A stretch of DNA of 64,000 bases from Stenotrophomonas sp. Marseille-Q4652 (GTDB lineage: Bacteria; Pseudomonadota; Gammaproteobacteria; Xanthomonadales; Xanthomonadaceae): contig NZ_CAKAKE010000001.1 in assembly GCF_916618915.1 (NCBI RefSeq), positions 1,116,001 to 1,180,000 of the forward strand, given 5' to 3'. The notes under the pieces are model-generated. The model was not told where the DNA came from, did no database searches, and saw nothing but the letters and a program-made list of their open reading frames with translations. Both the position numbers and the translations under genes were made by a program. Shown one piece after another: positions 3 through 64,000 of this stretch. Position 1 is the stretch's first letter. Each line of letters starts with the position of its first letter.

Positions 3-161
3 GGCAATGTCGCCAGTGAAGATGTGGTGTATATGTTGCACGGAATGGGGATTGAGACTGGCGTCGACCTCCTGGCCCTGGCCGAAACCGGCCGGTGGCT
101 GGCAGGCCGCCTCGGCCGGGAAACGGGAAGCAGGACAGGAAGGGCATTGGCGCCTACATGA
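3..161 (+). CDS. mvaB: hydroxymethylglutaryl-CoA lyase, C-terminal end (partial)
   Basis: Only the last 52 codons are in the window; the gene begins upstream. The reading frame from position 3 contains EDVVYMLHGMGIETGVDL, the conserved C-terminal segment of HMG-CoA lyases (cleavage of HMG-CoA to acetoacetate and acetyl-CoA in leucine degradation). The catalytic GxGGCP loop lies before the window, so it cannot be checked. The stop TGA at 159-161 overlaps an ATG at 158 that opens the reading frame leading to the next signalling gene, which suggests co-transcription. Confidence 0.8.
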   Translation, partial: GNVASEDVVYMLHGMGIETGVDLLALAETGRWLAGRLGRETGSRTGRALAPT

Positions 162-328
162 GCACAGCCGACCAGCGCAACGACACGGATGCCGGTGACC
201 ACGTCACTGCCTAGCTTGATGCGCTGTCGGAGCTCGACCAGGCCCTCTCACATCCCCACCCGGCCAACCTGCACCGGCTGCTGCAGGCCGCACGCGATGC
301 CCTGCAGCAGGCCATCGACGACCGCCGC

Positions 329-2710: not shown

Positions 2711-2779
2711 TCGCGCTGCCGCAGAGCGAAAGCCCGCTTCGGCTAGAATCGGCGGTTCTTCATCCCGCAGGATTGCCTG

Positions 2780-3550
2780 ATGCAGCTCGATACCGTCCGC
2801 GCCGTGATCACCGGCGGCGTCTCCGGCCTTGGACTGGCCGTGGCCCAGTACATCGTCGCCCATGGCGGCAAGGTCGCCCTGTTCGACCTCAATGACGATA
2901 AAGGTGCCGCCGCGGTGGCCGCGCTGGGCGAAGGCAATGCCCGCTACTTCAACACCAACGTCACCGACGAGGCCGGCGTGGTCGCCAGCCTCGCCGCCGC
3001 CCGCGAGTTCCTCGGCGGCCTGAACGTGGCCATGAACTGTGCCGGCATCCTCGGCGCCGGCCGCGTGCTGGGCAAGGAAGCGCCGATGCCGCTGGCCAAC
3101 TTCCAGACCACGGTGATGGTGAACCTGGTCGGCAGCTTCAACGTGGCCAAGGCCGCGGCCAACCTGATGCAGCACAACGAACCGGGCCAGGATGGCGAGC
3201 GCGGCGTGATCATCAACACCGCCAGCGTCGCGGCCTACGAAGGCCAGATCGGCCAGGCCGCCTACTCCGCCTCCAAGGGCGGCGTGGTCGGCATGACCCT
3301 GCCGATGGCGCGCGAACTGGCCCGTTTCGGCATCCGCGTGATGACCATCGCCCCGGGCGTGTTCTGGACGCCGATGGTCGACGGCATGCCCGAGTCGGTG
3401 CAGCAGTCGCTGGCCGCCTCGATCCCGTTCCCCTCGCGCCTGGGCAAGCCGGAGGACTTCGCGTCCCTGGTCGGCCACATCGTCGGCAACCCGTACCTCA
3501 ACGGCGAGACCATCCGCCTGGACGGCGCCACCCGGCTGGCTCCGAAGTAA
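2780..3550 (+). CDS. SDR family dehydrogenase, 3-hydroxyacyl-CoA dehydrogenase type 2-like
   Basis: A 256-residue short-chain dehydrogenase/reductase, full family length. TGGVSGLG (residues 11-18) is the NAD-binding glycine motif; INTASV and YSASK (Tyr/Lys near 162-166) supply the Ser-Tyr-Lys catalytic set, and APG follows the active site. The overall pattern (DLNDDKG after the nucleotide-binding strand, FWTPM after the APGV turn) resembles HSD10-type L-3-hydroxyacyl-CoA dehydrogenases of fatty acid and branched-chain amino acid breakdown, which would fit the neighbouring HMG-CoA lyase. The substrate is inferred. A TAGAAT -10-like box at 2744-2749 lies 30 bases before the ATG. Confidence 0.85.
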
Positions 3551-3557
3551 TCTTCCA

Positions 3558-3574
3558 GGGCGCCAGCGGCGCCC
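3558..3574 (+). terminator. hairpin after the SDR gene
   Basis: GGGCGCC, loop AGC, GGCGCCC: a perfect 7-bp stem ending 24 bases after the SDR stop, followed by a broken pyrimidine run (TTCCTCCCTTT). A weak terminator or attenuator, since the next gene starts at 3607. Confidence 0.5.
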
Positions 3575-3606
3575 TTCCTCCCTTTACCCACCAGCGACCC
3601 AATCGC

Positions 3607-4173
3607 ATGAAAGCCAGCGAAATCAAGAAAGGCAACGTCGTCGAGTTCAACAACGGCGTCTACCAGATCCGTGACATCGAGCGCTCCTCCCCGCAGGGCC
3701 GCGGCGGCAACGTCCGCTTCCGTTTCATCATGTACAGCGTGCCCGGTGGCACCAAGCTCGACGCCAGCTTCGATGCCGATGACCAGCTGACCGAAGTCGA
3801 GCTGCTGCGCCGCCAGTCCACCTTCTCGTACATGGACGGCACCGCGTTCGTGTTCATGGACGACGAGGACTACACCCCGTACACGCTGGATGCGGACGTG
3901 ATCGGCGATGACGCCGGCTACATCACCGAAGGCCTGGCCGGCATCTACGTGCAGGTGATCGACGAACAGCCGGTCGCCATCCAGCTGCCGCAGCACGTCA
4001 CCCTGGAAGTGGTCGAGACCCCGCCGGAACTGAAGGGCGGCACCGCGACCAAGCGTCCGAAGCCGGCCAAGCTCAACACCGGCATCGAGATCATGGTCCC
4101 GGAATACATCGCCAACGGCGAGAAGATCCTGGTCAACACCACCACCGGCGAGTTCGGCGGCCGCGCCGACTGA
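3607..4173 (+). CDS. yeiP: elongation factor P-like protein EfpL/YeiP
   Basis: 188 residues, the usual length. It starts with the KOW-like domain ([19 protein letters not shown]) and ends with the OB domains including EDYTPYTL and the final GRAD seen in the E. coli protein. The tip of the first domain reads SSPQGRGG, the EfpL form in which an arginine replaces the modifiable lysine of EF-P. EF-P paralogues bind between the ribosomal P and E sites and relieve stalling at polyproline and related motifs; this role is family knowledge. The gene stands alone between a hairpin and a strong terminator. Confidence 0.93.
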
Positions 4174-51221: not shown

Positions 51222-51323
51222 ATGAGCAGCATCGGCGCACCCCTTTTCCATCCGTTCCCGCCCCAGTCGGGGAACTGGCCGCTGGCCTGCCTGCCCGCTG
51301 CCGCTGCCATCAAGGCCGGCTGA
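51222..51323 (+). CDS. 33-residue leader-like peptide overlapping the PRPP-synthetase-like gene
   Basis: ATG 51222 follows a GGAGA ribosome site and encodes MSSIGAPLFHPFPPQSGNWP and 13 more residues; its TGA overlaps the ATG of the next gene as TGATG, the usual sign of coupled translation. It is proline-rich with no recognised domain. It could be a regulatory leader or simply a ribosome-loading ORF. Confidence 0.4.
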   Translation: MSSIGAPLFHPFPPQSGNWPLACLPAAAAIKAG

Positions 51324-52201
51324 TGCAGCGCCTGATTCTCGCCGTCCCCGGCAACGAGACGTTCGCCGCGCAGCTGGTCGCAGCCACCGGTGCCGGGCAC
51401 GGCCGTATCGAGGCCCGCCGCTTCCCCGATGGGGAGCATTACGTGCGCCTGCACGCCGACGTCGCCGGCAAGGTGGTCGACCTGGTCTGCACCCTCGCCC
51501 GCCCGGACGGGAACCTCACCACCCTGCTGTTCGCCGCCGACTGCGCGCGCGAACTTGGCGCGGCCGAAGTCAACCTGGTCGCACCGTACCTGGCCTACAT
51601 GCGCCAGGACATCCGCTTCCAGCCCGGCGAGGCCGTCACCTCGCGAACCTTCGCACCCTGCTCTCGGCCCACTTCGATGCGCTGCTGACCGCCGACCCGC
51701 ACCTGCACCGGCATCCGACGCTGGCGGCGATCTACACGATCCCGACCACGACCCTGCATGCCGCCCCGCTGCTGGCCGGGTGGATCGATGCCAACGTCCC
51801 GCGGCCATTGATCGTGGGCCCGGACGAGGAGAGCGAGCAGTGGGCCGGTGCCATCGCCGCCCACATCGGCGCCCCGCACACGGTCCTGCGCAAGGTCCGC
51901 AGTGGCGACCGCGACGTGGCCATCGCGCTGCCCGACTTGCGCCACTTCCGCGACCGCACCCCGGTGGTGGTCGACGACATCGCCTCCTCCGGCCGCACCC
52001 TGCTGGTGGCGGGCCGCCAGCTGATCGAACAGGGCCTGCCCACGCCCGAATGCGTGGTCGTCCACGCCCTGCTCGATGGCGAGGCACACGCGGAGCTTCT
52101 GCGGGTGTTCAGCCGGTTCACCTCCACCGATTCGGTGCCGCACCCGAGCAACCGCATCGCGCTGGCGCCACTGTTCGCCCGCGCTCCGCTCGAGGGCCAG
52201 C
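51323..52201 (+). pseudogene. ribose-phosphate pyrophosphokinase-like gene, frameshifted and truncated by IS3
   Basis: The frame from ATG 51323 (QRLILAVPGNETFAAQL, RRFPDGEHYVRL, APYLAYMRQDIRFQPGEA) is PRPP-synthetase-like. At about 51654 one base is missing: SRTF is followed by an off-frame tail, while the next frame continues ATLLSAHFDALLT, the ATP/PRPP region VVVDDIASSGRTL and HPSNRIALAPLF. The end is cut at the IS3 left repeat (52202), so the last few residues are replaced. It is a shorter PRPP-synthetase relative, not the housekeeping Prs; its true substrate is unknown. Confidence 0.82.
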
Positions 52202-52264
52202 GGGGTTCACCCCCGTTTTCACGGACACTTGCAAGAAGGCCGATCCAGGCCATGAGGAGTGTTC

Positions 52265-52552
52265 ATGTCGAAGCGAAGGAAGTTCAGCGCCGAGTTCAAG
52301 CGCGGCGCGGTTGAGCAGGCCAGCCAGCCGTGTGTGAGCTGTGCCCAGGTGGCCCGGGAGCTGGGGATCCGCGACACCCTGCTGACCCGCTGTAAGCGGG
52401 AGGCGCAGAGCCAGGGCAACACCTCCTTCGGCGGCACCGGCACGCCGCGGGACGAGGAACTGGCCCGGCTGAAGCGCGAGTTGGCCCGGATCAAGAAGGA
52501 ACGGGATTTTTTGCGAGAAGCGGCGACGTTCTTTGCCAAGGGATCATCCTGA
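52265..52552 (+). CDS. IS3-family transposase OrfA
   Basis: 95 residues from ATG 52265, with GAGGAGT upstream. HTH protein: [36 protein letters not shown], and a C-terminal leucine zipper ([20 protein letters not shown]). It binds the element's ends and multimerises with the OrfAB product. Confidence 0.9.
52507..52513 (+). promoter_or_regulatory. programmed -1 frameshift site of the IS3 element
   Basis: TTTTTTG within the orfA codons GAT TTT TTG. Slipping back one base here leads without stops into orfB (FARSGDVL...), which lies in the -1 frame. This is the normal route to the OrfAB transposase in IS3 elements. Confidence 0.65.
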
Positions 52553-52560
52553 GGTATCAG

Positions 52561-53421
52561 GTGATCGAACGTTGCCGCGACGAGTTTCCGGTTCGACTGA
52601 TGTGCCGTTGCCTGCGGGTGTCGGCCAGCGGTTACTACGACTGGAGCAAGCGCTTGCCCAGCGCCCGACAGCGCGACAACCAGCGCTTGGCCGTGCGCAT
52701 CCGCGAGATGCACGAAGACAGCCGGGGCACTCTGGGCGCCGGGCGCATGCACGAAGACCTGGCCGACCAAGGCGAGAGCGCCAGCTTGAACCGGGTGGCG
52801 CGCCTGATGGCGGTCGAGGGCCTGCAGGGGTGGCCGCGTCCCAAGCGGCGTGGCCAGCGCGGCCAGCCGGCGCTGACGCCCCCGGGCGTGCGCAACCTGC
52901 TGGAGCGAGACTTCACCGCGCTGGAGCCGGAGACCAAGTGGGTCACCGACATCACCGAGATCAAGACCGGCCAAGGCAAGCTGTATCTGTGCATCGTGCT
53001 GGATTTGTTCGACCAGCGGGTGGTCGGCTGGTCGATGCATTACCGGCAGGACCGGCACATGGTGATCCGGGCGGTGCAGATGGCGGTCTGGCAGCGGCAA
53101 GGCAGCGGCCCGGTGATCCTGCATTCCGATCGCGGCAGTCAATTTCGAAGCGGCGACTACCAGCGGTATCTGGCGGCCAACGGTCTGGTGTGTTCGATGA
53201 GCGCGGTGGGTCACTGCGGCGACAACGCCGCCTGCGAAGGGTTCTTCGGAATGCTCAAGCGCGAACGCGTCTACCGCATGACGTACCCGACACTCGATGC
53301 GGCAAGGACTGATGTGTTCGAATACGTCGAGCGGTTCCACAACCCAAGGATGCGGCGACGGGTCGCCAGGCACGATCGGAAGTTCCAAGCTCTTTCACAA
53401 CCGTCCGTGATTTCGGGGTAG
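52561..53421 (+). CDS. IS3-family transposase OrfB
   Basis: 286 residues; the catalytic part. DDE residues are in [20 protein letters not shown] and [11 protein letters not shown]. The C-terminal [17 protein letters not shown] replaces the NxxRRHSxLG motif, as in one common IS3 subgroup of xanthomonads. The element appears intact. GTG 52561 is nominal, since it is probably translated as an OrfAB fusion. Confidence 0.92.
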
Positions 53422-53427
53422 AACCCC

Positions 53428-53742
53428 TTTGGTGCTGTACGAACCCGATCATCGACCCAGCCCAAGTCCTTGAATCCGGGTGTCGCCTTAACGCGTGACA
53501 CTTGCGTTTAGCTTGAGAGCCAACCGCAGCCCGGCATTCGGGCCTTTGCAGGTTTCCAACTAGCAAAGCATTCCAGTTCGACTGGAGCTGCCTGTGCGCC
53601 TTTCTCGGGAGCTACCCCAGAATGCTGCTGGAGGTCGGCCACGCACAGGCCGCCCCTTTGATTTCCTGTTAAATCATGCCTGATCGTGTTAAATCCAGTA
53701 AAATCTCCTTCTTGTACACAAGACTGCTACGAATCCATTGCC
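53428..53742. other. 315-base gap between IS3 and the BREX operon
   Basis: No convincing gene on either strand. The first 200 bases look like non-coding or remnant sequence; the last 100 carry the direct repeats and the presumed promoter of the BREX operon. A short inverted repeat CTTGT-AC-ACAAG lies at 53711-53722, just before the first start codon. Confidence 0.5.
53667..53705 (+). repeat. direct repeats in the BREX promoter region
   Basis: TGTTAAATC at 53667-53675 and again at 53687-53695, exactly 20 bases apart, followed by GTAAAATC at 53698-53705. Spacing of about two helical turns fits tandem operator half-sites; the last copy may also serve as the -10 box. They lie 38-76 bases upstream of the HTH gene. 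Confidence 0.5.
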
Positions 53743-53952
53743 ATGTCCGACCGTTGGCTGAGCGTCGAAGAAATCACCGAACACCTCGGGGTCAGCAAGG
53801 ACACCGTCTACGCCTGGATCGCCAAGCGCAACATGCCCGCCCATAAAGTGGGGAGGCTCTGGAAATTCCAGAAAGCGGAAGTCGACGCCTGGGTCAAGGC
53901 CGGCGGAGCCAGCGACAGTGACGATGCCCGGCAGGAGCGCGATGATGGTTGA
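53743..53952 (+). CDS. excisionase-type helix-turn-helix regulator of the BREX operon
   Basis: 69 residues from ATG 53743 (an upstream GTG at 53686 would add 19 unlikely residues). WLSVEEITEHLGVSKDTVYA is the HTH, followed by a wing (KVGRLWKFQKAEVDAWV), as in MerR/excisionase-like HTH_17 proteins. Its gene overlaps brxA by about 10 bases, so it is part of the operon and probably controls it through the repeats just upstream. Confidence 0.8.
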   Translation: MSDRWLSVEEITEHLGVSKDTVYAWIAKRNMPAHKVGRLWKFQKAEVDAWVKAGGASDSDDARQERDDG

Positions 53953-54556
53953 GCGCTACCGCCTATCTTTCACCACAGGCGGTCTGTTCCTGCTCGAAGC
54001 CCCGGCGATTGCAGCGCACTACCTGACCACACAGGACTGGGAACAAACACGTTCGCATGTGCGTAGCGGGAACGTGCTGCAGGTCAGGACGGCTACCGCG
54101 TCCACCCGCATCAGCAAAGAGTTGATCGCGCGTCTTGAACTACTCGACTTTGAAGAGTTGGAAGTCCTAATCGACTCCAACTTGCGAGACCGCGCCTATC
54201 TGCTCTGGGTCGCTGCCTGCCGGCGCTACGCCTTTGTCCGTGACTTTGCCAGGGAAGTACTGCGGGAGAACCTTCTCGTTCTGCGACGTCAGTTGAGCGC
54301 GGCCGACTACGAGGCTTTCGTCAGCGCCAAAGCACTCTGGCATGACGAACTGGACGAATTGGCACCGTCCACCCAACGCAAGCTTAGGCAGAACCTGTTT
54401 CGCATGTTGCGCGAGGCTGAATTGGTCTCCGAGCAATTGCTGATCCAGCCAACGGTACTGACTCCACAGCTCGCTCTGCTGCTGGCTCGGCGGGGTGTCG
54501 ATGAGCTTCTGGTGTTCCCGGCAAGTGACCAAGAGATCAAGAGGTGGCTGAAATGA
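53945..54556 (+). CDS. brxA: BREX protein BrxA
   Basis: 203 residues from ATG 53945 (ATG 53942 is also possible). DUF1819 family: YRLSFTTGGLFLLEAPAIAA, SNLRDRAYLLWVAACRRYAF, FAREVLRENLL. BrxA is a small helical DNA-binding protein of type 1 BREX with a NusB-like fold; its exact role in defence is not settled. It overlaps the HTH gene and brxB. Confidence 0.9.
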   Translation: MVERYRLSFTTGGLFLLEAPAIAAHYLTTQDWEQTRSHVRSGNVLQVRTATASTRISKELIARLELLDFEELEVLIDSNLRDRAYLLWVAACRRYAFVRDFAREVLRENLLVLRRQLSAADYEAFVSAKALWHDELDELAPSTQRKLRQNLFRMLREAELVSEQLLIQPTVLTPQLALLLARRGVDELLVFPASDQEIKRWLK

Positions 54557-55209
54557 TCCAGAAGATCAGCCAGCAGCCGCTGGCAAAACGCTTCGACCAT
54601 TTGCGCGAGGTCATTGCCAGTCCTCGATTCCTGCAAATGCGAGGGTTGAACAACGACCTGCCCTTTTACATCTGCGAGTTCAAGGCATCAGAGGCCTTCG
54701 AGATCCAGCGCATGCGTCGCCAGTTGGTCAACACATTGGCAGGCCTGCAGGTGGAATGCCTGCAGGGCCGGGGCGTCAAGGTACTGGAGATCAACCTCTA
54801 CGACCTGACCATCGACATGCTCAAGGCGCGTGAAGGCAGCAGTGAGGGCAGCAATCTGTGGGATGAGATTCTTGCTGCCGAGCCGGAGGTCGAGAAAGAA
54901 GCCTTGCAAGAGCTGTTGCAGAACGTCATGGACATCAAGGGGCATCTGATCCCGCAGATCGGCGAGCGACTGGCGCAAAGTGACTACGACGTGCTGTTCC
55001 TCAGCGGGGTCGGTGAAGTCTTCCCCTATATCCGCTCGCACAACGTGCTGAACAACCTGCAGAGCACTGCCAAGGAGAAGCCCACCGTGATGTTCTTTCC
55101 GGGGGAGTACCGCCACTCGCTGGAACAAGGGGCGTCCCTGGAGTTGTTCGGGCTGCTGCACGACGACAAGTACTACCGCGCATTCAATATTTTCGACATC
55201 CAGGCGTGA
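54553..55209 (+). CDS. brxB: BREX protein BrxB
   Basis: 218 residues from ATG 54553, which overlaps the brxA stop (ATGA). DUF1788 family: SPRFLQMRGLNNDLPFYICE, VLEINLYDLTIDML, VLFLSGVGEVFPYIRSHNVL and MFFPGEYRHSLEQGASLEL. Essential for BREX defence in studied systems; biochemical role unknown. Confidence 0.92.
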   Translation: MIQKISQQPLAKRFDHLREVIASPRFLQMRGLNNDLPFYICEFKASEAFEIQRMRRQLVNTLAGLQVECLQGRGVKVLEINLYDLTIDMLKAREGSSEGSNLWDEILAAEPEVEKEALQELLQNVMDIKGHLIPQIGERLAQSDYDVLFLSGVGEVFPYIRSHNVLNNLQSTAKEKPTVMFFPGEYRHSLEQGASLELFGLLHDDKYYRAFNIFDIQA

Positions 55210-55220
55210 GGAAACACCCG

Positions 55221-58200
55221 ATGGAACTCAAAGGCATTTTCAAGCGCCCGGTCAGCCGCCCGATCGAAGGCGTCATCAAGGCAGACGATGAGGCCAGCCT
55301 GTACACCGAGCTCAGCGAGTACGTGCTGACCGACGAAGTCGCCAAGCGCCTCGAACACTTTCTCGATGCCTACACTGACTATCAGGTTGCCAACGGCGTG
55401 TGGGTATCTGGCTTCTTCGGCTCGGGCAAGTCGCATCTGCTGAAAATGCTGGCCTTGCTGCTGGAAAACCGTGAGGTCGGCGGCAGCACTGCACTGGATC
55501 TGTTTCTGCCCAAGATCCCTCAGGACGATGAACTGCTGCGCGCCAAGCTGAAGCAGGCCGTCGCCATTCCATCCAAAAGCATTCTGTTCAACATCGACCA
55601 GAAGGCCGACATCATCAGCAAGACCCAAGTCGATGCGCTGCTGTCGGTGTTCGTCAAGGTGTTCAACGAAACCTGCGGCTACTACGGCAAGCAGGGCTAC
55701 ATCGCGCAGTTCGAGCGCGACCTGGACGGGCGTAGCCAGTTCCAAGCGTTCAAGGCGGCCTACCAGGACCTGGCCAACAAGCCGTGGGAACGCGGCCGGG
55801 AACAGGCGTTGCTTGAATCCGGCAACATCACCAAAGCCTACGCTGAGGTCACCGGCGAAGACGCCGCGCATGCCAAGGGCATCCTGGACAAGTACCGCAG
55901 CCAGTACAGCGTGTCCATTGAGGATTTCGGCAATCAGGTCAAGGCCTGGCTCGACCAGCAACCGGCCGACTTCCGCCTGAACTTCTTCGTTGACGAAGTC
56001 GGGCAGTACATCGCCGACAACACCAAGCTCATGACCAACCTGCAGACGGTGGCCGAAAGCCTGGCCACCAAATGCCAAGGCCGCGCCTGGATCATCGTCA
56101 CCGCCCAGGAGGACATGACCGACGTGCTGGGCGACATGAGCAAGCAGCAAAGCAACGACTTTTCCAGAATCCAGGCCCGCTTTGCCAACCGGCTCAAACT
56201 CACCAGTGCCGATGTGGCCGAGGTGATCCAGAAGCGCTTGCTGGCCAAAAACGATGACGGTCGCCAACTGCTGCAGGGCGTGTATGCGCAGCAGGCCAAC
56301 AACTTCAAGACTCTGTTCGAGTTTGCCGATGGCGGCCAGCGCTATCAGAACTTCCGCGATGAAGAGCACTTCATCTACGCCTATCCCTTCGTTCCCTACC
56401 AATTCCCGCTGTTCCAGGCCGCCATTCGCGGGCTGTCGCTGCACAACGGCTTCGAAGGTAAGGCCAACTCAGTCGGCGAGCGCTCCATGCTTGGCGTCTT
56501 TCGCGATGTCGCCATGGCGATCGAGAACGAATCGGTCGGTCAGTTGGCCACTTTCGACCGCATGTTCGGGGGTATCCGCAGTGCACTGAAAGGCGGCATC
56601 CAGAGCGCCATCAACGTAGCCGAACGCAACCTCAACGACGCATACGCCGTGCGCGTCCTCAAGGCGCTGTTCCTGGTCAAGTACGTCAAGGAGTTCAAGG
56701 CCACACCGCGCAACCTGAGCGTGCTGATGCTGGAACGCTTTGGCGAGGACATTCCCGCCCAACACAAGAAGCTCGAAGCGGCGCTCAATCTGCTGGAGCA
56801 GCAGACCTACATTCAGCGCAATGGTGATGTCTATGAATACCTGACCGACGAAGAAAAAGACGTCGAACAGGAAATCAAGAACACCGACATCGAGAACGCC
56901 GACCTGGCCAAGGAGCTGGAGAAGCTGCTGTTCGATGGCGTCATCAAGCAGCGCAAGATCCGCCACAGCCACGGGCAGGACTATCCTTATACCCGCAAGC
57001 TCGACGATCGTGTGCTCAGCCGCGAGCATGAACTTGCCATCCATGTCATCTCGCCGCTGACCGACGGCTTTGACGATTCCGAAGGATTCCTCACGCAGCA
57101 ACGCATGCAAAGCATGGGGCGCGATGAGTTGCGGGTGGTCCTGCCGGCCGATGCGCGCTTCATGCAAGACCTGGCCATGCACAAGCGCACCGAGAAATAC
57201 ATCCGCCAGAACAGCAATACCCAGCAAGAAACCGTCAAACGCATTCTCGACGCCAAGGGCTCCCAGAACACCGAGCGCCTGAACGATCTGCAGGTTCGCG
57301 CGCGTGTGCTGCTGGGCAAAGCCAGGCTCATCATCAACGCGTCAGACGTGGACGTTGGCGGCGAAGATGGCCAGATCCGCGTGCTCAAGGGCTTCGAGCA
57401 ACTGGTGCAGACCGCATACCCCAACCTGCGCATGTTGCGCGACGACGTGGTATTTGCTGAAGCCGACATCGGCAAACACCTGCGCACAGCCAAGGACGGC
57501 TTGCTGGCCAACGATGCTGCCAGTCTGACCGAGCCGGAGCAGGAGCTGCTGGCCTTCATCCAGAGCAATGCCCGTGGCGGCGTGCGCACTACGGTCAAGA
57601 GCTTGCTTGAGCGCTTCGAGCGCAAGAATTACGGCTGGTATCACGCCGCCATCCTGTGCAACCTGGCCCTGTTGTGCGCCCGCGGCAAGGTCGAGGTCCG
57701 GCAGGACAGCAATCCGCTTGACGGCGATGCGCTGGAGCGCCGCTTGCTTAATACCCATGCCCATCCTTCGCTGGTGCTCGAGCCGCAGGTCGAGTTCAGT
57801 GCCTCGCAGCTGCGCACGCTCAAGGAGTTCTACGCTGAGTTCTTCGATCAGCCCGCCGCCGGCAACGAAGCCCGGGCACTGGCCCGTGAAACCGTCGATG
57901 CACTGAAAACGCTGGAAACCGAATTGAGCGCGCTGCACGGGCAAAAAGCGCAATACCCCTTCCTGAGCGCATTGGCGCCGGTGCTGACCACCTTGAAGGA
58001 CATGGCCAGCAAAAACCCGAACTGGTTCCTTACGGATCTGGCCCGGGCCGAAGATGCACTGCTGGACACCAAGGAGAACATCATCGACCCGCTGCGGCGC
58101 TTCATGCGCAGCCCGCAGAAATCCATCTACGACCAGGCACGCCAGCTGGTTGCCGAGCAGGAAGACAACTTCGCCTACGTTGGCGCAACCGAAGTCGATG

Positions 58201-58766
58201 CGGTGCGCGGTTTGCTGGATGATAAAAGTCCCTGGCAAGGCAACCGCCTGCAGCAGCTCAAGCCGCAGTTGGACGCCCTGCAGCACGCCATTGACCAGCA
58301 GCTCGCGCAGGAGAAGACGCAAGCCAGCGAGCGCCTCTTGGAGCTGGAACAGCGCCTGCAAGACGCGGCGGAATTCGGCCAGCTGAACCCGACTGACCGC
58401 ACGCGGCTCATCCAGCCCTTCGGTGACGCTCGGCAAAGCATCCAGGTCCACAAGCGCATCGCCATGATCCGCGATCAACTGCGCCGGTTTGAAGACGAGG
58501 ACTACCCCCGGCTGCTGCTGCAACTGGAACAATTGGCCCGGCCAGCACCGTCCGGTGCTGCGCCAGAACCCGCATCACCCGGCCCAGACGGCGAGGCTCC
58601 CCCGCCCGTACAAGCACCCGAACCCAAGCTGGTGGCGGCACGCACCATCAAGGTCAGCTATGCCAAGCCGTGGCTGGCTTCGGAGGCCGAGCTGGACGAC
58701 TACCTGCGAAAGCAGCGCGAAGCCTGGCTGAAGGAAATCCAGGCCGGCAATCGGGTACAGATCTGA
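55221..58766 (+). CDS. brxC: BREX ATPase BrxC (PglY-like)
   Basis: 1181 residues from ATG 55221 (MELKGIFKRPVSRPIEGVIK matches the BrxC N-terminus better than the GTG at 55206). Walker A GFFGSGKSH at residues 64-72 and a Walker B-like FFVDEVGQYI near 255. A long helical C-terminal region includes heptad-like stretches around residues 1020-1110 and a Pro/Ala-rich linker near 1115-1140. BrxC is a large AAA-type ATPase needed for both methylation and phage exclusion in BREX. Length is typical. Confidence 0.95.
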   Translation: MELKGIFKRPVSRPIEGVIKADDEASLYTELSEYVLTDEVAKRLEHFLDAYTDYQVANGVWVSGFFGSGKSHLLKMLALLLENREVGGSTALDLFLPKIPQDDELLRAKLKQAVAIPSKSILFNIDQKADIISKTQVDALLSVFVKVFNETCGYYGKQGYIAQFERDLDGRSQFQAFKAAYQDLANKPWERGREQALLESGNITKAYAEVTGEDAAHAKGILDKYRSQYSVSIEDFGNQVKAWLDQQPADFRLNFFVDEVGQYIADNTKLMTNLQTVAESLATKCQGRAWIIVTAQEDMTDVLGDMSKQQSNDFSRIQARFANRLKLTSADVAEVIQKRLLAKNDDGRQLLQGVYAQQANNFKTLFEFADGGQRYQNFRDEEHFIYAYPFVPYQFPLFQAAIRGLSLHNGFEGKANSVGERSMLGVFRDVAMAIENESVGQLATFDRMFGGIRSALKGGIQSAINVAERNLNDAYAVRVLKALFLVKYVKEFKATPRNLSVLMLERFGEDIPAQHKKLEAALNLLEQQTYIQRNGDVYEYLTDEEKDVEQEIKNTDIENADLAKELEKLLFDGVIKQRKIRHSHGQDYPYTRKLDDRVLSREHELAIHVISPLTDGFDDSEGFLTQQRMQSMGRDELRVVLPADARFMQDLAMHKRTEKYIRQNSNTQQETVKRILDAKGSQNTERLNDLQVRARVLLGKARLIINASDVDVGGEDGQIRVLKGFEQLVQTAYPNLRMLRDDVVFAEADIGKHLRTAKDGLLANDAASLTEPEQELLAFIQSNARGGVRTTVKSLLERFERKNYGWYHAAILCNLALLCARGKVEVRQDSNPLDGDALERRLLNTHAHPSLVLEPQVEFSASQLRTLKEFYAEFFDQPAAGNEARALARETVDALKTLETELSALHGQKAQYPFLSALAPVLTTLKDMASKNPNWFLTDLARAEDALLDTKENIIDPLRRFMRSPQKSIYDQARQLVAEQEDNFAYVGATEVDAVRGLLDDKSPWQGNRLQQLKPQLDALQHAIDQQLAQEKTQASERLLELEQRLQDAAEFGQLNPTDRTRLIQPFGDARQSIQVHKRIAMIRDQLRRFEDEDYPRLLLQLEQLARPAPSGAAPEPASPGPDGEAPPPVQAPEPKLVAARTIKVSYAKPWLASEAELDDYLRKQREAWLKEIQAGNRVQI

Positions 58767-58785: not shown

Positions 58786-59646
58786 ATGGCCAACGAAGTC
58801 ATCCAGCGCATGCAGAACCATCTGGATGCATTGGTGCAGGGGATGCCCGGTGAGAACATCGAGTTCTGGTACGCCCGCGACCTGCAGCAACCCCTGGACT
58901 ATGCCCGCTGGGAGAACTTCATGACCGCCATCCGGCGGGCCATGGAGGCTTGTGAATCAACGGGTTACAGCGTGGACGACCATTTTCGTGGCGTCACGAA
59001 AATGGTCCCTCTTGGCAGCGGTGCCGAGCGCCCGGTCGACGACTTCATGCTCACCCGCTACGCCTGCTACCTGGTAGCCATGAACGGCGACCCCCGCAAG
59101 GAAGCCATTGCGTTCGCCCAGAGCTACTTCGCCACCCAGACCCGCAAGCAGGAGCTGATCGAGGAGCGCATGCGTCTGCAGGCTCGCCTGGATGCCCGCG
59201 ACCGCCTGCGCGAATCGGAAAAAGCCCTATCCCAGAACATCTACGAACGGGGCGTGGACGATGCCGGCTTCGGTCGCATTCGCTCCAAGGGCGATACCGC
59301 CCTGTTCGGCGGCAACAGCACCCAGAAGATGAAAGACCGCCTGGGAGTTGCCCCGGCCCGGCCGCTGGCGGACTTCCTGCCAACCCTCACCATCGCGGCC
59401 AAGAACCTGGCCACGGAGATGACCAACCACAACGTGCAACAGGCGAATCTGCAAGGCGAAACCCGCATCACCGACGAACACGTGCAGAACAACCTCAGCG
59501 TGCGCGGCATGCTTGGCCAGCGCGGCATCCAACCGGAGCACCTGCCGGCAGAAGAGGACATCAAGAAGCTGGAGCGACGGGTGAAGGCCGACGAAAAGAA
59601 ACTCGAAAAACGCTCGAGCAAGCTGCCCGGCAAGAAGGCCGATTGA
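58786..59646 (+). CDS. dinD: DinD-family protein embedded in the BREX operon
   Basis: 286 residues. It aligns with E. coli DNA-damage-inducible protein D: ARWENFMTAIRRAMEACEST, DDHFRGVTKMVPLGSGAERP, RYACYLVAMNGDPRKEAIAF, YFATQTRKQEL, then a charged C-terminal helix. DinD inhibits RecA filament function in E. coli. It is not one of the six core BREX genes; its place between brxC and pglX, 19 bases after one and overlapping the other (TGATG), means it is co-expressed with them. A role in sensing or limiting damage is inferred. Confidence 0.88.
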   Translation: MANEVIQRMQNHLDALVQGMPGENIEFWYARDLQQPLDYARWENFMTAIRRAMEACESTGYSVDDHFRGVTKMVPLGSGAERPVDDFMLTRYACYLVAMNGDPRKEAIAFAQSYFATQTRKQELIEERMRLQARLDARDRLRESEKALSQNIYERGVDDAGFGRIRSKGDTALFGGNSTQKMKDRLGVAPARPLADFLPTLTIAAKNLATEMTNHNVQQANLQGETRITDEHVQNNLSVRGMLGQRGIQPEHLPAEEDIKKLERRVKADEKKLEKRSSKLPGKKAD

Positions 59647-61457
59647 TGGACACCAGCAAACTCAAGAAATTCGCCCAGTTCGCCCGCCGCACCTTGCGCG
59701 AGCAGGTCAGTGCCAAGCTGGCCCTGGTGCTGTCGCCCAATAGCGCAGCCCGGCGCGAAAACCCGCAAGCCGTGAAGAAGCTGGAAGAAGCCATTGTGCA
59801 AAGCGATGGCCAGGATCCGGTCATCGAGCGCGTGGCCTACACCTGGTTCAACCGCTTCTGCGCCCTGCGTTTCATGGATGTGAACCGCTACACGCGCATT
59901 GGCGTGGTGTCGCCCGCTGAAGGCCAGTTTCAGCCGGAGATCCTGCTCGAAGCCAAGATGGGCCACTTCGACGAAGACATGGTGCCACCCAAGGTACAGC
60001 AGAAAATCGCCGATCTGCTGGCGGGCCGCACGCCCAGCCATGACGGCCAGGGCGAGGCTTACCGCCTGCTGGTGGTCGCCGCCTGTAATGCCTGGCATCA
60101 GGCCATGCCCTTCCTGTTCCAGCGCATCGACGATTACACCGAGCTGTTGATGCCCGACGACCTGCTCTCGGGTAACGCCATCCTGGCCTACACCCGCGAG
60201 GCCATGACGCCGGATGCCTGCAAAAGCGTGGAAGTCATCGGCTGGCTGTACCAGTTCTACATTTCGGAGAAGAAGGACGCCGTCTTCGAAGGGCTGAAGA
60301 AGAACCAGAAGATCACCCCGGACAACATCCCGGCGGCCACCCAGCTCTTCACCCCGCACTGGATCGTGCGCTATCTGGTGGATAACTCACTAGGCCGCCT
60401 GTGGCTGCTCAACCGCCCGGCATCAAAGCTGGCTGAGCAAATGGTGTACTACATTCCACCGGAAAAGCCCGAGACCGATTTCCTCCGCATCAACGGCCCG
60501 CAGGACATCAAGGTCTGCGACCCGGCCTGCGGCTCGGGCCACATGCTCACCTACGCCTTCGACCTGCTCTACGCCATGTACGAAGAGGACGGCGTCGACC
60601 CGGCGCAGATCCCGGAGCTGATCCTTACCCACAACCTGTTCGGCATCGAGCTGGACGAACGCGCGGGCGAACTGGCCGCTTTTGCGCTCAGCATGAAGGC
60701 ACGCGCCCGCCAGCGGCGCTTTTTCAACAAGCGCATCAAGCCCAATATCTGCGTGCTGGAAAAGGTCAAGTTCGAGCGTGACGAGCTGGACGAGTACATG
60801 GGCCACACCGGCCGCGACCTGTTCACCCACGAGCTGCGCGAAACCCTGCAACAGTTCGGCGAGGCCGATAACTTCGGCTCGCTGATCCGGCCCCGGTTGG
60901 CCAGCGCGGCCGATGCACTGGCGACGCTGCAAGCTCAGGACATGGGCGGCAACCTGTTCCTGGCGGAAACCCACCGCAAGGTGCTGACCGTACTGCGTAT
61001 GGCCGAGTACCTGAGCCCGCGCTATCACGTGGTCGTCGCCAACCCGCCGTACATGGGCAGCAAGGGCATGAATGGGCGGTTGAGCGCGTGGGCCAAGGAG
61101 AACTACCCCAACAGCAAGTCTGACCTGTTTGCGATGTTCATCGAGCGCAACCTGGACATGGCATTGCCGGGGGGCGCAGTGGCGATGATCACCATGCAAA
61201 GCTGGATGTTCCTGTCATCGTTCGAAGCTTTGCGCGGCCGCATCCTCAACCAGAACACCATTCTTTCCATGGCACACCTGGGCGCGCGGGCCTTCGACAG
61301 TATCGGTGGCGAAGTCGTTTCCACCACGGCGTTCGTGCTGGAGAACGCACACAAGCCGGACTATCGGGGCGCGTATCTGCGACTGGTGGATGGCAATTCG
61401 GAAGCGGAGAAGATGGAAATGCTGACCAAGGCGATTGAACAAGGAAGGACGAAATGA
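59646..61457 (+). CDS. pglX: PglX (BrxX) N-terminal half: adenine methyltransferase core
   Basis: 603 residues, about half of a normal PglX (about 1200). It begins like full-length PglX (LKKFAQFARRTLREQVSAKL) and has both methyltransferase motifs: the SAM-binding DPACGSGHML at about 292 and the catalytic NPPYMG at about 466. It ends with RLVDGNSEAEKMEML, which in intact PglX is followed within a few residues by the YRAS.DFKKIPG.PIAYW block. Here that block is absent; the frame stops as TKAIEQGRTK, and the TGA overlaps the start of the ATPase gene (ATGA). The missing half resumes at 63364. PglX methylates host DNA at a non-palindromic site and is needed for phage exclusion. Confidence 0.93.
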   Translation: MDTSKLKKFAQFARRTLREQVSAKLALVLSPNSAARRENPQAVKKLEEAIVQSDGQDPVIERVAYTWFNRFCALRFMDVNRYTRIGVVSPAEGQFQPEILLEAKMGHFDEDMVPPKVQQKIADLLAGRTPSHDGQGEAYRLLVVAACNAWHQAMPFLFQRIDDYTELLMPDDLLSGNAILAYTREAMTPDACKSVEVIGWLYQFYISEKKDAVFEGLKKNQKITPDNIPAATQLFTPHWIVRYLVDNSLGRLWLLNRPASKLAEQMVYYIPPEKPETDFLRINGPQDIKVCDPACGSGHMLTYAFDLLYAMYEEDGVDPAQIPELILTHNLFGIELDERAGELAAFALSMKARARQRRFFNKRIKPNICVLEKVKFERDELDEYMGHTGRDLFTHELRETLQQFGEADNFGSLIRPRLASAADALATLQAQDMGGNLFLAETHRKVLTVLRMAEYLSPRYHVVVANPPYMGSKGMNGRLSAWAKENYPNSKSDLFAMFIERNLDMALPGGAVAMITMQSWMFLSSFEALRGRILNQNTILSMAHLGARAFDSIGGEVVSTTAFVLENAHKPDYRGAYLRLVDGNSEAEKMEMLTKAIEQGRTK

Positions 61458-62599
61458 TCAGCAAGCTGCACCTCAAAAATTTCATCGCCTTCACCGACCT
61501 GAGCATTGACTTCTCGCCAGGCATCAACATCGTCATCGGCGAGAACGGTACTGGCAAAACCCAACTGCTCAAGGCCATTCTGGCGCTAAGTGGGCCGGAG
61601 GCCCGTGGGGAACATGCTGATGAGCAGCTCGCCCGCAAGCTGTGCCGGCTCTATCACCCGCTGAGTGATCAAGTTGGCGAACTGCGCCGCGCTGGCGAAC
61701 GCGGCGAGGCCATGCTGAGCGTCACCTTTGCATCCGGTCATGAAATCACCGCCCAGTTCAGCGGCGCCGCCACGGTGGTCAAAGTCAGCACCAACGCACA
61801 AGGTGAGGCTTCTCCCGCCATCTTCATTCCGACCAAAGAGGTGTTGTCACTGGTGCGCGGCCTCACGGCCGAACAGCCCCATCTGCCCACCATCGAACGC
61901 ATCTTTGACGACGGCTATCTGGATCTGGCCAACCAGTTGGCCAAAGAAGGCACATCCGACCTGGACGCTAAAGTTCAACTCGATCCACGCTTTGCCAGCA
62001 TCGTGCCTCGTCTGACCAATCTGATTGACGGGCAATACCGGCTGGAAAACGGCCGCTTCGTCTTCGAGGCTGGCCGCTACGTGGAGAAGGACGCCGCCAC
62101 GCGCAGCAAAGCCCAGCACGCGCAGATGTACCAGGACAGCACCGAATGGAGATTCATGCCCAGCAGCAAGCAGCACCTGTCCAGCGGCATGACGGCCGAG
62201 GGCTTCCGAAAAATTGGCGTGCTTCAGCGCCTCCTCAGCAATGGCAGTCTTAACCCCGGCATCACTGGTCCACTGCTGTGGGATGAGCCCGAATCCAACC
62301 TCAACCCCAAGCTGATGAAGGATCTGGTGCAGGTGCTACTGGAACTGGCTCGCAACGGCCAGCAGATCATCCTTGCTACTCATGACTATGTACTGCTCAA
62401 GTGGTTTGACCTGTTGATGGACAAGGGCAAAGGGGATCAAGTGCGATTCTTCAGCCTTTATCGCGACTCCTCCACAAGAGACGTAAAAGCATCAACGACT
62501 GACGATTATCTTCACATTACTCCCAACCCCATTGATGACACTTTCGGCTATCTCATCAATCAGGAGATCGAGAATGACATGGGGGATCTTGGGAAATGA
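61454..62599 (+). CDS. AAA/ABC-like ATPase inserted between the pglX halves
   Basis: 381 residues, RecF/SMC-like head of the AAA_15/AAA_21 group seen in OLD- and PARIS-type defence proteins. Walker A GENGTGKTQ (residues 29-37), signature-like HLSSGMT (about 241), Walker B LLWDEPESNLNP (about 275) and switch histidine in ATHDYVLL (about 310). It carries no nuclease or Toprim domain of its own, so it likely works with the next gene, whose ATG overlaps its TGA. It overlaps the pglX N-half the same way. No close family name can be given. Confidence 0.88.
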   Translation: MISKLHLKNFIAFTDLSIDFSPGINIVIGENGTGKTQLLKAILALSGPEARGEHADEQLARKLCRLYHPLSDQVGELRRAGERGEAMLSVTFASGHEITAQFSGAATVVKVSTNAQGEASPAIFIPTKEVLSLVRGLTAEQPHLPTIERIFDDGYLDLANQLAKEGTSDLDAKVQLDPRFASIVPRLTNLIDGQYRLENGRFVFEAGRYVEKDAATRSKAQHAQMYQDSTEWRFMPSSKQHLSSGMTAEGFRKIGVLQRLLSNGSLNPGITGPLLWDEPESNLNPKLMKDLVQVLLELARNGQQIILATHDYVLLKWFDLLMDKGKGDQVRFFSLYRDSSTRDVKASTTDDYLHITPNPIDDTFGYLINQEIENDMGDLGK

Positions 62600-63150
62600 A
62601 GGTCGTTGTTGCCGATGGATTTGAGTTTCGCTTCTCTGATGCGATAGATGCCTATGTATTCGACGAGAAGGATAGCAGTAAGCCTACATTCCACGGTGCA
62701 CCGATGAAGGGTGTCGATATCGTCGCAGAATTCGATGAGGCATACGTTTACGTCGAAATAAAGGACTATGACGATCCGTCTGCGTATGACGTGGCGAAGG
62801 CCGCGAATGATGATGAGCGCCAGGGACGCCAGGACAGTTTTAAGTGGCTTAAAGGCTACCTGAAATACAAATTCAGGGATTCGCATCTTTATCGTTATGC
62901 CGAAGGGAAAGTCGATAAGCCTGTCCATTACATCTGCGTCCTGACATTCGACAATGCCCTAAATAGCAGGATGCTCAATGAGCTAAAGCGCGAGCTCCCC
63001 GTCGGGAAAAAACCTAGGCGCTGGACTCAAGCGCTGGCGAAAAGTTGTCAAGTGGTGAATCTGGAAAAGTGGAACGAAGTATTCCCAAAGTGGCCTGCGA
63101 GTCGCGTCATGCCAGCCGCACCTATACCAGAGGAGGCTGGATATGCTTGA
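62596..63150 (+). CDS. PD-(D/E)xK-like nuclease candidate, partner of the ATPase
   Basis: 184 residues, not recognised as a named family. Residues 39-60 read GVDIVAEFDEAYVYVEIKDY: Asp41 followed by a strand and Glu54-x-Lys56, the spacing and pattern of a PD-(D/E)xK nuclease core (D, then ExK on the next strand). LKGYLKYKFRDSH and VHYICVLTFDN may supply later core strands. The gene is clearly AT-richer than its neighbours. Its start overlaps the ATPase stop by ATGA. A nuclease effector controlled by the ATPase is the working reading; the motif could also be an inactive relic. Confidence 0.6.
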   Translation: MKVVVADGFEFRFSDAIDAYVFDEKDSSKPTFHGAPMKGVDIVAEFDEAYVYVEIKDYDDPSAYDVAKAANDDERQGRQDSFKWLKGYLKYKFRDSHLYRYAEGKVDKPVHYICVLTFDNALNSRMLNELKRELPVGKKPRRWTQALAKSCQVVNLEKWNEVFPKWPASRVMPAAPIPEEAGYA

Positions 63151-63367
63151 TTACATCAGTGGTTTGTTCAGGGGGAGTTGGACGCGCGATGCGCTGAGCA
63201 TCAAGGGCGGCGTCACCGACCATTGTGTGATCGGCGAGATCGACGTGAAGGCGCTGCGCCAGTTCCAGAGTGGCTACCGCTCGCGGGACAAGCCATTCAA
63301 GCCGGTGCCGGATGGATTCGAAATTGATGTTGGCCGCAAAGTGTTGCCGGCGGGAGAAGCAGAATGA
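63143..63367 (+). CDS. 74-residue protein of unknown function between the pglX halves
   Basis: ATG 63143 overlaps the stop of the preceding gene by 8 bases and follows an AGGAGG ribosome site at 63131-63136, a strong sign that it is translated. Sequence: GLFRGSWTRDALSIKGGVTD, a central HCVIGEIDVKALRQFQSG and a basic middle; no domain recognised. Its TGA overlaps the ATG of the pglX C-half (ATGA). Its GC content is higher than that of the genes on either side. It could be an adaptor, immunity factor or coupling ORF. Confidence 0.6.
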   Translation: MLDYISGLFRGSWTRDALSIKGGVTDHCVIGEIDVKALRQFQSGYRSRDKPFKPVPDGFEIDVGRKVLPAGEAE

Positions 63368-64000
63368 GCAGAAATCAGAACAGCAGCCGTGAGCAGGGGG
63401 TGGAGAAGTATTTCTATCGAGCTTCAGCTGTTGATTTTAAGAAAATTCCGTCCAATCCAATTGCTTATTGGGCAAGAGAAGGAATCCTTGAGTCATTTGA
63501 TAAAGACAAACTGATTGAAGATGTCGCTCAAGTAAAGATTGGAATGGGCACCGGGCGAAATGCGATATTTGTTAGAAACTGGTGGGAGGTAGGTCAAAAT
63601 TTGATCGACTTCTCTTTGACTGATGTCACGCAATTGGAAGGCAGCAAGGCGCGATATTTTCCTTACAACAAAGGGGGGGACTTTAGGCTTTGGTATGGAA
63701 ATCAGCAACACGTGCTCTGGTTTGATTCTGCTGGTCGCAACTACATGGATACCATGTCCGGGCACAGAGAGAATGGCGGATGGAGTCATTACTTTAGACA
63801 AGGATTGACGTGGTCATTCATCAGTTCATCTAAATTTGGAATTCGCTTCCTTCCAACGGGTTTTGCTTTTGATGTTGCAGGCTCCACACTTTTTCTTGAT
63901 GCAAGAGATATTAAATATGTCCTTGGTTTCCTGTCTTCAGTGGTTTGCTTTGAAGTGCTCGCACTTCTTAATCCAACGCTAAATTATCAAGCTGGAAATT
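63364..64000 (+). CDS. PglX C-terminal half: target-recognition region (partial, runs off the window)
   Basis: 212 codons visible, open at 64000. After a 12-residue start (MSRNQNSSREQG) it reads YFYRASAVDFKKIPSNPIAYW, then GMGTGRNAIFVRNWWE, YFPYNKGGDFRLWYGN, LTWSFISSSKFGIRFLPTGF and ALLNPTLNYQAGN: the start of the target-recognition half of PglX. It contains no methyltransferase motif of its own. As a separate protein it should dock on the N-half, as HsdS docks on HsdM. The DNA here is AT-rich against the 59.6-61.4 kb part, hinting at a different recent origin of the specificity part. Confidence 0.9.
   Translation, partial: MSRNQNSSREQGVEKYFYRASAVDFKKIPSNPIAYWAREGILESFDKDKLIEDVAQVKIGMGTGRNAIFVRNWWEVGQNLIDFSLTDVTQLEGSKARYFPYNKGGDFRLWYGNQQHVLWFDSAGRNYMDTMSGHRENGGWSHYFRQGLTWSFISSSKFGIRFLPTGFAFDVAGSTLFLDARDIKYVLGFLSSVVCFEVLALLNPTLNYQAGN

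Follow-up and report, generated by a model that had tools for sequence, protein, structure and literature searches.

Bacteriophage exclusion (BREX), which is said to have been defined in the 2015 study of Goldfarb, has in its type 1 form been described from E. coli HS, Salmonella and Acinetobacter, where the genes brxA, brxB, brxC, pglX, pglZ and brxL follow one another in this order and PglX (BrxX), usually a chain of about 1200 amino acids (aa), is encoded by one gene. In type I restriction-modification, methylation (HsdM) and sequence recognition (HsdS) lie on separate polypeptides, and the target-recognition domain (TRD) is exchangeable; a review passage contrasts BREX with this division of polypeptides. 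The locus considered here was found in a 64,000-nucleotide stretch of Stenotrophomonas sp. Marseille-Q4652 (contig NZ_CAKAKE010000001.1, positions 1,116,001 to 1,180,000; "the window" denotes this whole stretch), the end of which falls inside a type 1 BREX operon that was therefore read beyond position 64000 in the source genome. The gene order matches that of the described systems, but the single PglX chain is absent: two open reading frames (ORFs) of 604 and 589 aa, pglX-N and pglX-C, stand 1.9 kb apart with other genes, the cargo, between them. A single chain is usual but arguably not defining for type 1 BREX, and the locus is treated as a variant of that type. It is probably best explained as a complete operon in which PglX is made of two subunits and the site of the split serves as a slot for defence genes, the HEC-02 pair found there being a backup effector. 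Within the window the genes are as follows.

53918..54556, + strand: brxA, 212 aa, with GTG start as called (Pfam BrxA, E 1.2e-45)
54544..55209, + strand: brxB, 221 aa (Pfam BrxB, E 2.7e-38)
55206..58766, + strand: brxC, 1186 aa (PADLOC BrxC PDLC02479, E 0)
58786..59646, + strand: DinD-family gene, 286 aa, between brxC and pglX-N (NCBIfam NF008573, E 6.5e-109; PADLOC PDC-S13, E 2.3e-116)
59646..61457, + strand: pglX-N, N-terminal helical region and adenine-methyltransferase domain with DPACGSG and NPPY (PADLOC PDLC02525, a 607-position model, E 8.8e-273)
61454..62599, + strand: HEC-02A, OLD/RecF-like ABC ATPase, 381 aa (PADLOC PDLC04213, E 4.4e-106; Pfam AAA_15/AAA_21)
62596..63150, + strand: HEC-02B, PD-(D/E)xK-like nuclease, 184 aa (PADLOC PDLC04229, E 2e-64)
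63143..63367, + strand: 74-aa ORF, 3' remnant of DRT1, a reverse transcriptase (RT)-nitrilase gene (PADLOC PDLC03780, positions 849-903 of 907, E 2.3e-17)
63364..64000, + strand: pglX-C, the part inside the window, with TRD, spacer, winged helix-turn-helix (wHTH) and coiled coil (PADLOC PDLC02516, E 8.9e-209)

The preliminary description of the window, made from its letters alone, had already recognized that the two pglX ORFs enclose three others, encoding an ATPase, a nuclease-like protein and a product of 74 aa, and that the five are linked through stop/start overlaps of 4, 4, 8 and 4 bases; this is how the genes lie. It was also right about the stop of pglX-N at 61457, although the chain does not end after DGNSEAEK, as had been stated, but extends 14 residues further (MEMLTKAIEQGRTK); its 604 aa are counted from an in-frame TTG at 59643, with an ATG at 59646. 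Extending the sequence settled the concern that pglX-C might be truncated just past 64000, since it is a complete ORF of 589 aa (63364-65133 in window-equivalent coordinates), followed by intact pglZ (835 aa) and brxL (692 aa). The type 1 set of brxA, brxB, brxC, pglX, pglZ and brxL is thus complete in one operon. An opposite-strand ORF, named hisS-like by eye, comes after brxL, and the DinD (DNA-damage-inducible D) gene, a PADLOC candidate (PDC-S13), overlaps pglX-N by 1 base.

The halves together cover one full PglX, because the matches to NCBIfam NF033452 (BREX-1 PglX, 1210 positions) run over positions 1-648 in pglX-N and 644-1209 in pglX-C; PADLOC PglX models of 607 and 593 positions fit the N- and C-half over 1-593 and 18-593, respectively. 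Aligned to E. coli BrxX (9ewz), pglX-N covers residues 73-637, and pglX-C covers residues 642-1215 of Salmonella PglX (8c45); the split point falls between positions 637 and 646 of the former protein and 638 and 642 of the latter. According to published articles, the inter-domain hinge of Salmonella PglX is found at residues 654-659 (PMC11341690), and the E. coli model was cut at 660/661 to give an upper and a lower jaw (PMC11842806). The break therefore lies about 10-20 residues before the hinge and would leave the methyltransferase and recognition lobes as separate chains. Modelled alone, PglX-C, for which Pfam gave no match, was predicted to fold as the PglX C-lobe (mean predicted local distance difference test, pLDDT, 81; predicted template modelling score, pTM, 0.58), with Foldseek matches to 8c45 (E 5e-37) and also to 9ewz. 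In the proposed mechanism, PglX-N would comprise a helical domain and an S-adenosylmethionine-binding adenine methyltransferase, and PglX-C the TRD, spacer, wHTH and coiled coil (names after PMC12839542); both would come together on the BREX complex in a manner resembling HsdM and HsdS, and methylate as a pair. The likeness to type I restriction-modification is that methylation and recognition are placed on separate chains here too, but the C-half is a PglX C-lobe by PADLOC and NCBIfam and not an HsdS, and BREX genes take the place of HsdR, which had no match among the eleven operon proteins scanned.

The split recurs in other genomes. The preliminary description had proposed searching genomes for separated pglX halves, and 15 loci with both halves were gathered: 12 from the genome_contigs collection, the window, L101 (genome G868) and L102 (genome G1042); one of them, L085, belongs to a Methanolobus archaeon. 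All 15 N-halves stop within the linker that typically reads ...EAIKNPxCGW in intact PglX, and the C-half carries a short leader of its own before the post-linker block (for L011 and L015, the leader start is that of a tblastn match from residue 1). Moreover, both halves appear to be under constraint. With conservation set at 97% or more of 87 intact rows, which selects 75 columns in the N-part and 49 in the C-part, each split locus had kept 73-75 of the former and 48-49 of the latter; the window keeps 74 and 49, with methyltransferase motifs and target-recognition region intact. In 10 hand-chosen pairs of the 36 within the window's clade, dN/dS was 0.06-0.12 for the N-half and 0.145-0.256 for the C-half, values that are rough because dS exceeds 1 in many comparisons and the pairs are related; the cargo gave 0.07-0.27, except for one HEC-02A pair saturated in dS. 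The maintained operon with a two-part PglX envisaged at the outset is thus supported by the recurrence in one linker, the conserved residues, the low dN/dS and a coupling that is mostly conserved. With regard to the anatomy, there is high confidence that the locus represents a genuine and recurring variant form of type 1 BREX; for a two-subunit enzyme the support is good but indirect.

What lies between the halves changes from locus to locus. Cargo is present in all 15, without a single cargo-free case, and about 1.5-5 kb with other ORFs separates the halves. HEC-02A/B is the sole cargo in L006, from Massilia pinisoli, and in L014, and likewise in the window, where a DRT1 stump is added; it is accompanied by DRT1 in L008 and by SIR2 and HerA in L011, L013 and L015. 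L009 holds an AAA ATPase, a 189-aa ORF and DRT1, L012 Shedu and DRT1, and L031 and L102 DRT1 alone. Schlafen is the only cargo of L085, and is joined by DUF1016/YhcG in L047, by Fic in L052 and by a PARIS-like AriA/AriB pair in L101. A UvrD-like helicase and DUF2290 form the cargo of L036:637-3503 (Halomonas sp. PR-M31), which stands outside the 15, its N-half being cut off by a contig edge. All cargo genes share the strand of pglX; the ORF selection also contains one 69-aa minus-strand ORF in L047. The stop of the N-half and the next start overlap by 4 bases in 13 of the 15 loci (L009 counted by its HEC-02A stump), and a 3-base gap is found in L047 and L052. Between 61200 and 63500 in the window no sigma-70-like site was found, against a shuffle mean of 1.4, which lends weak support to the absence of an internal cassette promoter. 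The cargo would be read from the BREX operon, coupled by the stop/start overlaps, so that the ribosomes which translate PglX-C probably reach it from the cargo gene just before it. Since the linker between the lobes appears to tolerate a break, the gap in the gene may have become an accessory slot in which the HEC-02 pair probably acts as a backup effector for cases where BREX is overcome; in the window, the scar of a lost DRT1 follows the pair.

The cargo role is where the strongest competing explanation applies, one that comes only somewhat short of an even chance: the split is functional, whereas the cargo merely rides along as a passenger in a neutral slot, trapped by recombination between the pglX arms and acting independently of BREX. 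It contests the role of the cargo only and is compatible with a two-subunit enzyme. The cargo is very diverse, differing even between close relatives (L008 and L011), and the same families are found elsewhere around BREX core genes: HEC-02A/B fills the gap between brxC and pglX in 26 of 63 intact loci with a readable gap, and Shedu, Schlafen, DUF1016 or DRT1 can sit between pglX and pglZ. In StySA, an ATPase/DUF4435 pair between pglX and pglZ made no contribution to modification (PMC9009780); it is BREX-embedded and PARIS-like by family, as is the L101 pair, although pglX is whole in StySA and in L101 the PARIS-like pair and Schlafen lie between the PglX halves. Opposed to this are the presence of cargo in each of the 15 split loci, the case made in PMC12839542 that phage counter-defence explains why such modules are kept, as backup effectors, and the joining of cargo and PglX-C, the start of the latter overlapping the last cargo stop by 4 or 8 bases in 12 of the 15, when the start codon nearest the cargo stop is chosen.

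Several points weigh against a two-subunit PglX with a functional cargo slot. The cargo could be an unlinked passenger; the start codons behind the overlaps just mentioned are a choice; and in L006, L014 and L102 the C-half starts without overlapping the cargo. In the PglX-C model, residues 1-34 are mostly below pLDDT 50 and disordered. Concerning constraint, dS was above 1 in 4 of 10 N-half and 8 of 10 C-half comparisons, from few, related pairs. Finally, among other genomes sampled, 15 of 17 readable junctions were intact and 2 split, the latter being the minority form.

A gap between brxC and pglX of more than 800 bases was present in 33 of 63 intact loci versus 2 of 14 split ones (the window, with DinD, and L047; L102 was left out), the 14 not being independent cases, because nine of them form one clade. 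In effect, the cargo of split loci has shifted to a position within pglX. Within the window's clade (36 pairs), DNA similarity continues beyond the pglX-N stop for a median of 262 bases (range 91-3855); in the other direction it extends across brxC in the four pairs that were viewed over their full length. In 35 of the 36 pairs it returns at 704-747 bases within pglX-C, directly after the TRD; pairs with the same cargo match inside the block too, as in L011/L013 (4529 of 5625 bases). L008 and L011 illustrate the turnover, with N-halves 94% identical, HEC-02A 61% identical and DRT1 in one facing SIR2-HerA in the other. The exception is L011/L015, whose recognition region (first 240 aa) is 95% identical compared to 82% for the rest of the C-half and 88% for the N-half, which suggests that here the specificity part alone was transferred; in the other nine pairs, the first 240 residues of pglX-C were 38-48% identical and the rest 76-91%. 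The recognition part in the window has a G+C fraction (GC) of 0.44, compared to 0.61 both for the remainder of pglX-C and for pglX-N. The intact control used the 14 closest of 61 pairs; 13 of these lost similarity within pglX, at the recognition domain, and several had a separate further break before or after pglX. As judged from these alignments, conserved arms flank one variable block, cargo plus TRD, in the window's clade, and the two are separate in intact loci. It is conceivable, although this can only be put forward tentatively, that the split forms a modular platform, in which one double crossover would swap effector and TRD together and coupled translation would tie the specificity subunit to the effector genes.

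The window's own cargo has a composite history. HEC-02A and HEC-02B are adjacent and both match PADLOC HEC-02, HEC presumably standing for "Hma-embedded candidate". The main text of PADLOC 2021 does not contain "HEC", and a literature search on HEC-02 returned off-topic papers only. In HEC-02B, D41, E54 and K56 (D..ExK) are invariant in 34 of 34 sequences, its GC is lower (0.50), and a PDB sequence search gave no match at E <= 1. Nine loci in which the junction is uninterrupted have an HEC-02B 60-78% identical to it, but an HEC-02A that shares only 38-47% with that of the window; conversely, HEC-02A is 80% identical to that of L006, although the HEC-02B proteins share 39%. The HEC-02A is thus of the split-clade type, and the HEC-02B of a subtype otherwise seen beside other HEC-02A types in the fetched loci, so that this ATPase/nuclease pair, besides being nested in pglX, looks mosaic because the identity patterns of its partners disagree.

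The third gene of the supposed three-gene cassette did not survive analysis, and two genes plus a scar remain. The 74-aa ORF corresponds to the last ~66 residues of DRT1, and by its PADLOC match and DNA identity it was rejected as a cassette gene and assigned as a 3' remnant: window positions 63154-63413 are 80% identical (209/260) to the DRT1 end and pglX-C start of L008. The full DRT type 1 gene (RT plus nitrilase, ~1000 aa) is absent from the window and present at full length in L008, L009, L012, L031 and L102. A Shine-Dalgarno-like GGGAGA, identified by eye, lies in the ORF before the pglX-C start. Matching stumps of HEC-02A were seen at the opposite junction in L009 (4965 on) and L012 (5576-5743). 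It would appear that the outer ends of lost cargo are retained where they carry the start/stop overlaps with pglX.

A different objection is that only one half matters, PglX-N methylating alone or PglX-C having turned into an independent DNA-binding regulator or a decoy. In its favour, the halves are encoded by distinct genes that change at unequal rates, but core residues of both methyltransferase and TRD are kept, and order and strand are the same in the 15 loci (which were chosen for having both halves, only order and strand being informative); this explanation has a slim chance.

Even less probable is a one-off insertion, in which a cassette disrupted the pglX of this strain, leaving two fragments in decay. 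Uninterrupted pglX is indeed commoner, and the 74-aa scar and low-GC segments indicate a rearranged locus. The search with pglX-C retained the best 80 of at least 585 loci in genome_contigs, of which 61 were uninterrupted, 12 split with both halves, four (L007, L010, L036, L043) showed a C-half after cargo at or near a contig edge, and three (L042, L062, L076) were not judgeable; 12-16 of 80 is not a prevalence, because the query was itself split and these are its top 80 among at least 585 relatives, and uninterrupted pglX is commoner among more distant relatives. Stand-alone C-halves with start and leader of their own abound, however: among the 120 best relatives of each of two divergent C-halves, 119 and 103 measure 560-610 aa, and of these 95 and 86 have an initial M and show the FYRAS..IP block no later than residue 28, numbers which tell that such C-halves abound and not that they prevail, because proteins above 1.75 times the query length, and hence full-length PglX, were excluded. 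The same linker is broken in 15 loci from four to six separate lineages, nearly all conserved residues are kept and dN/dS is well under 1, so that the broken-gene explanation was rejected by recurrence and constraint.

The count of lineages derives from trees of the N-half. In a 102-row tree under a simple model, which gave a long-branch warning, the split label needs 6 changes, 5 of them forced by well-supported branches; in a mixture-model tree of 45 rows (all 15 split and 30 hand-chosen intact rows of the 102), it needs 6 (bootstrap 5%-95% range 6-6), 4 of them forced, and the splits formed one clade in 0% of 200 bootstrap trees. The window's clade (support 100/99) comprises nine rows from Pseudomonas, Halopseudomonas, Massilia, Rugamonas, Acidovorax, Zoogloea and the window, all nine split, instead of the uninterrupted relatives expected of a one-off event. 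Left out beforehand were L036 and L104 (split-like, N-half incomplete), nine intact rows with a short N-part, short C matches and loci with no usable N-part (L007, L010, L042, L043 and L062 among them); L005, L119 and the short duplicates L001, L003, L004, L087, L094 and L096 were removed by hand. The split thus appears to have arisen repeatedly at one spot that holds changing defence modules, although the 6 changes may be gains or re-fusions, which the trees do not separate. A possible route is that pglX was duplicated in tandem and one copy then lost its C-part, the other its N-part; the IMG/VR viral contigs L111, L113 and L114 contain BREX loci with two tandem complete pglX genes, possibly such an intermediate. 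Insertion into the linker is the alternative. Continued production of one chain through intein-like splicing, bypassing or trans-splicing agrees with a break in the inter-lobe linker but is scarcely credible given the 1.5-5 kb and other ORFs between the halves, the C-halves' own start codons, mostly preceded by a purine-rich stretch (14 contexts, by eye), and the lack of any intein family on either half (Pfam, E <= 0.01).

In the literature, OLD-ABC ATPase/PD-(D/E)XK pairs, Schlafen and other nucleases have been described inside BREX core loci or next to them (Rakesh and Krishnan 2026, PMC12839542), accessory modules of the same kinds as the cargo described here. The main text of that article contains no word starting with "split", "interrupt", "fission", "SIR2" or "reverse transcriptase", and passages of PMC11341690, PMC11842806, PMC8565338, PMC12629846, PMC12458937, PMC10609329, PMC4752239 and PMC12205998 do not describe a split pglX. 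The initial impression that the layout was undescribed thus has to be divided: such cargo beside BREX genes is already in print, and no description of it inside a split pglX was found in the main-text literature searched. If correct, the two-subunit proposal would offer a natural BREX methyltransferase broken beside the PglX hinge, and thereby a direct test of the two-lobe model. It would also offer a different construct for the problem that purified one-chain BREX methyltransferases bind their site but do not modify it in vitro (PMC12707154). The split site would be a specific, searchable place where defence modules (HEC-02, DRT1, SIR2-HerA, Shedu, PARIS-like, Schlafen) collect within another defence gene. 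Split systems may moreover be miscounted, and their cargo overlooked, because NCBI calls stand-alone C-halves simply PglX, nearly always so where names are given among the relatives listed.

Other collections added little. No further split locus was found in 78 genomes around G868, and G451 and G904 in the genome samples were fragments. Among 23 loci of viral contigs there was no clear split pglX: L111, L114 and L119 had been flagged owing to tandem copies, also present in L113, and L127 has a broken frame. Of 255 plasmid records matched, two were examined, L103 being intact and L104 having a pglX cut short beside Tn3, in two frames; both were excluded from the split count. Among phages there were 8 matching records. 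Immediately upstream of the BREX operon in the window, an IS3-like transposase ORF pair occupies 52259-53421, and a small excisionase-type helix-turn-helix ORF (53686-53952) lies between this pair and brxA, both named by eye from the translations. Ribose-phosphate pyrophosphokinase-like sequence extends over 51300-52320 in two frames, stopping near 51688 and resuming near 51808 (by eye), and may represent a frameshifted gene.

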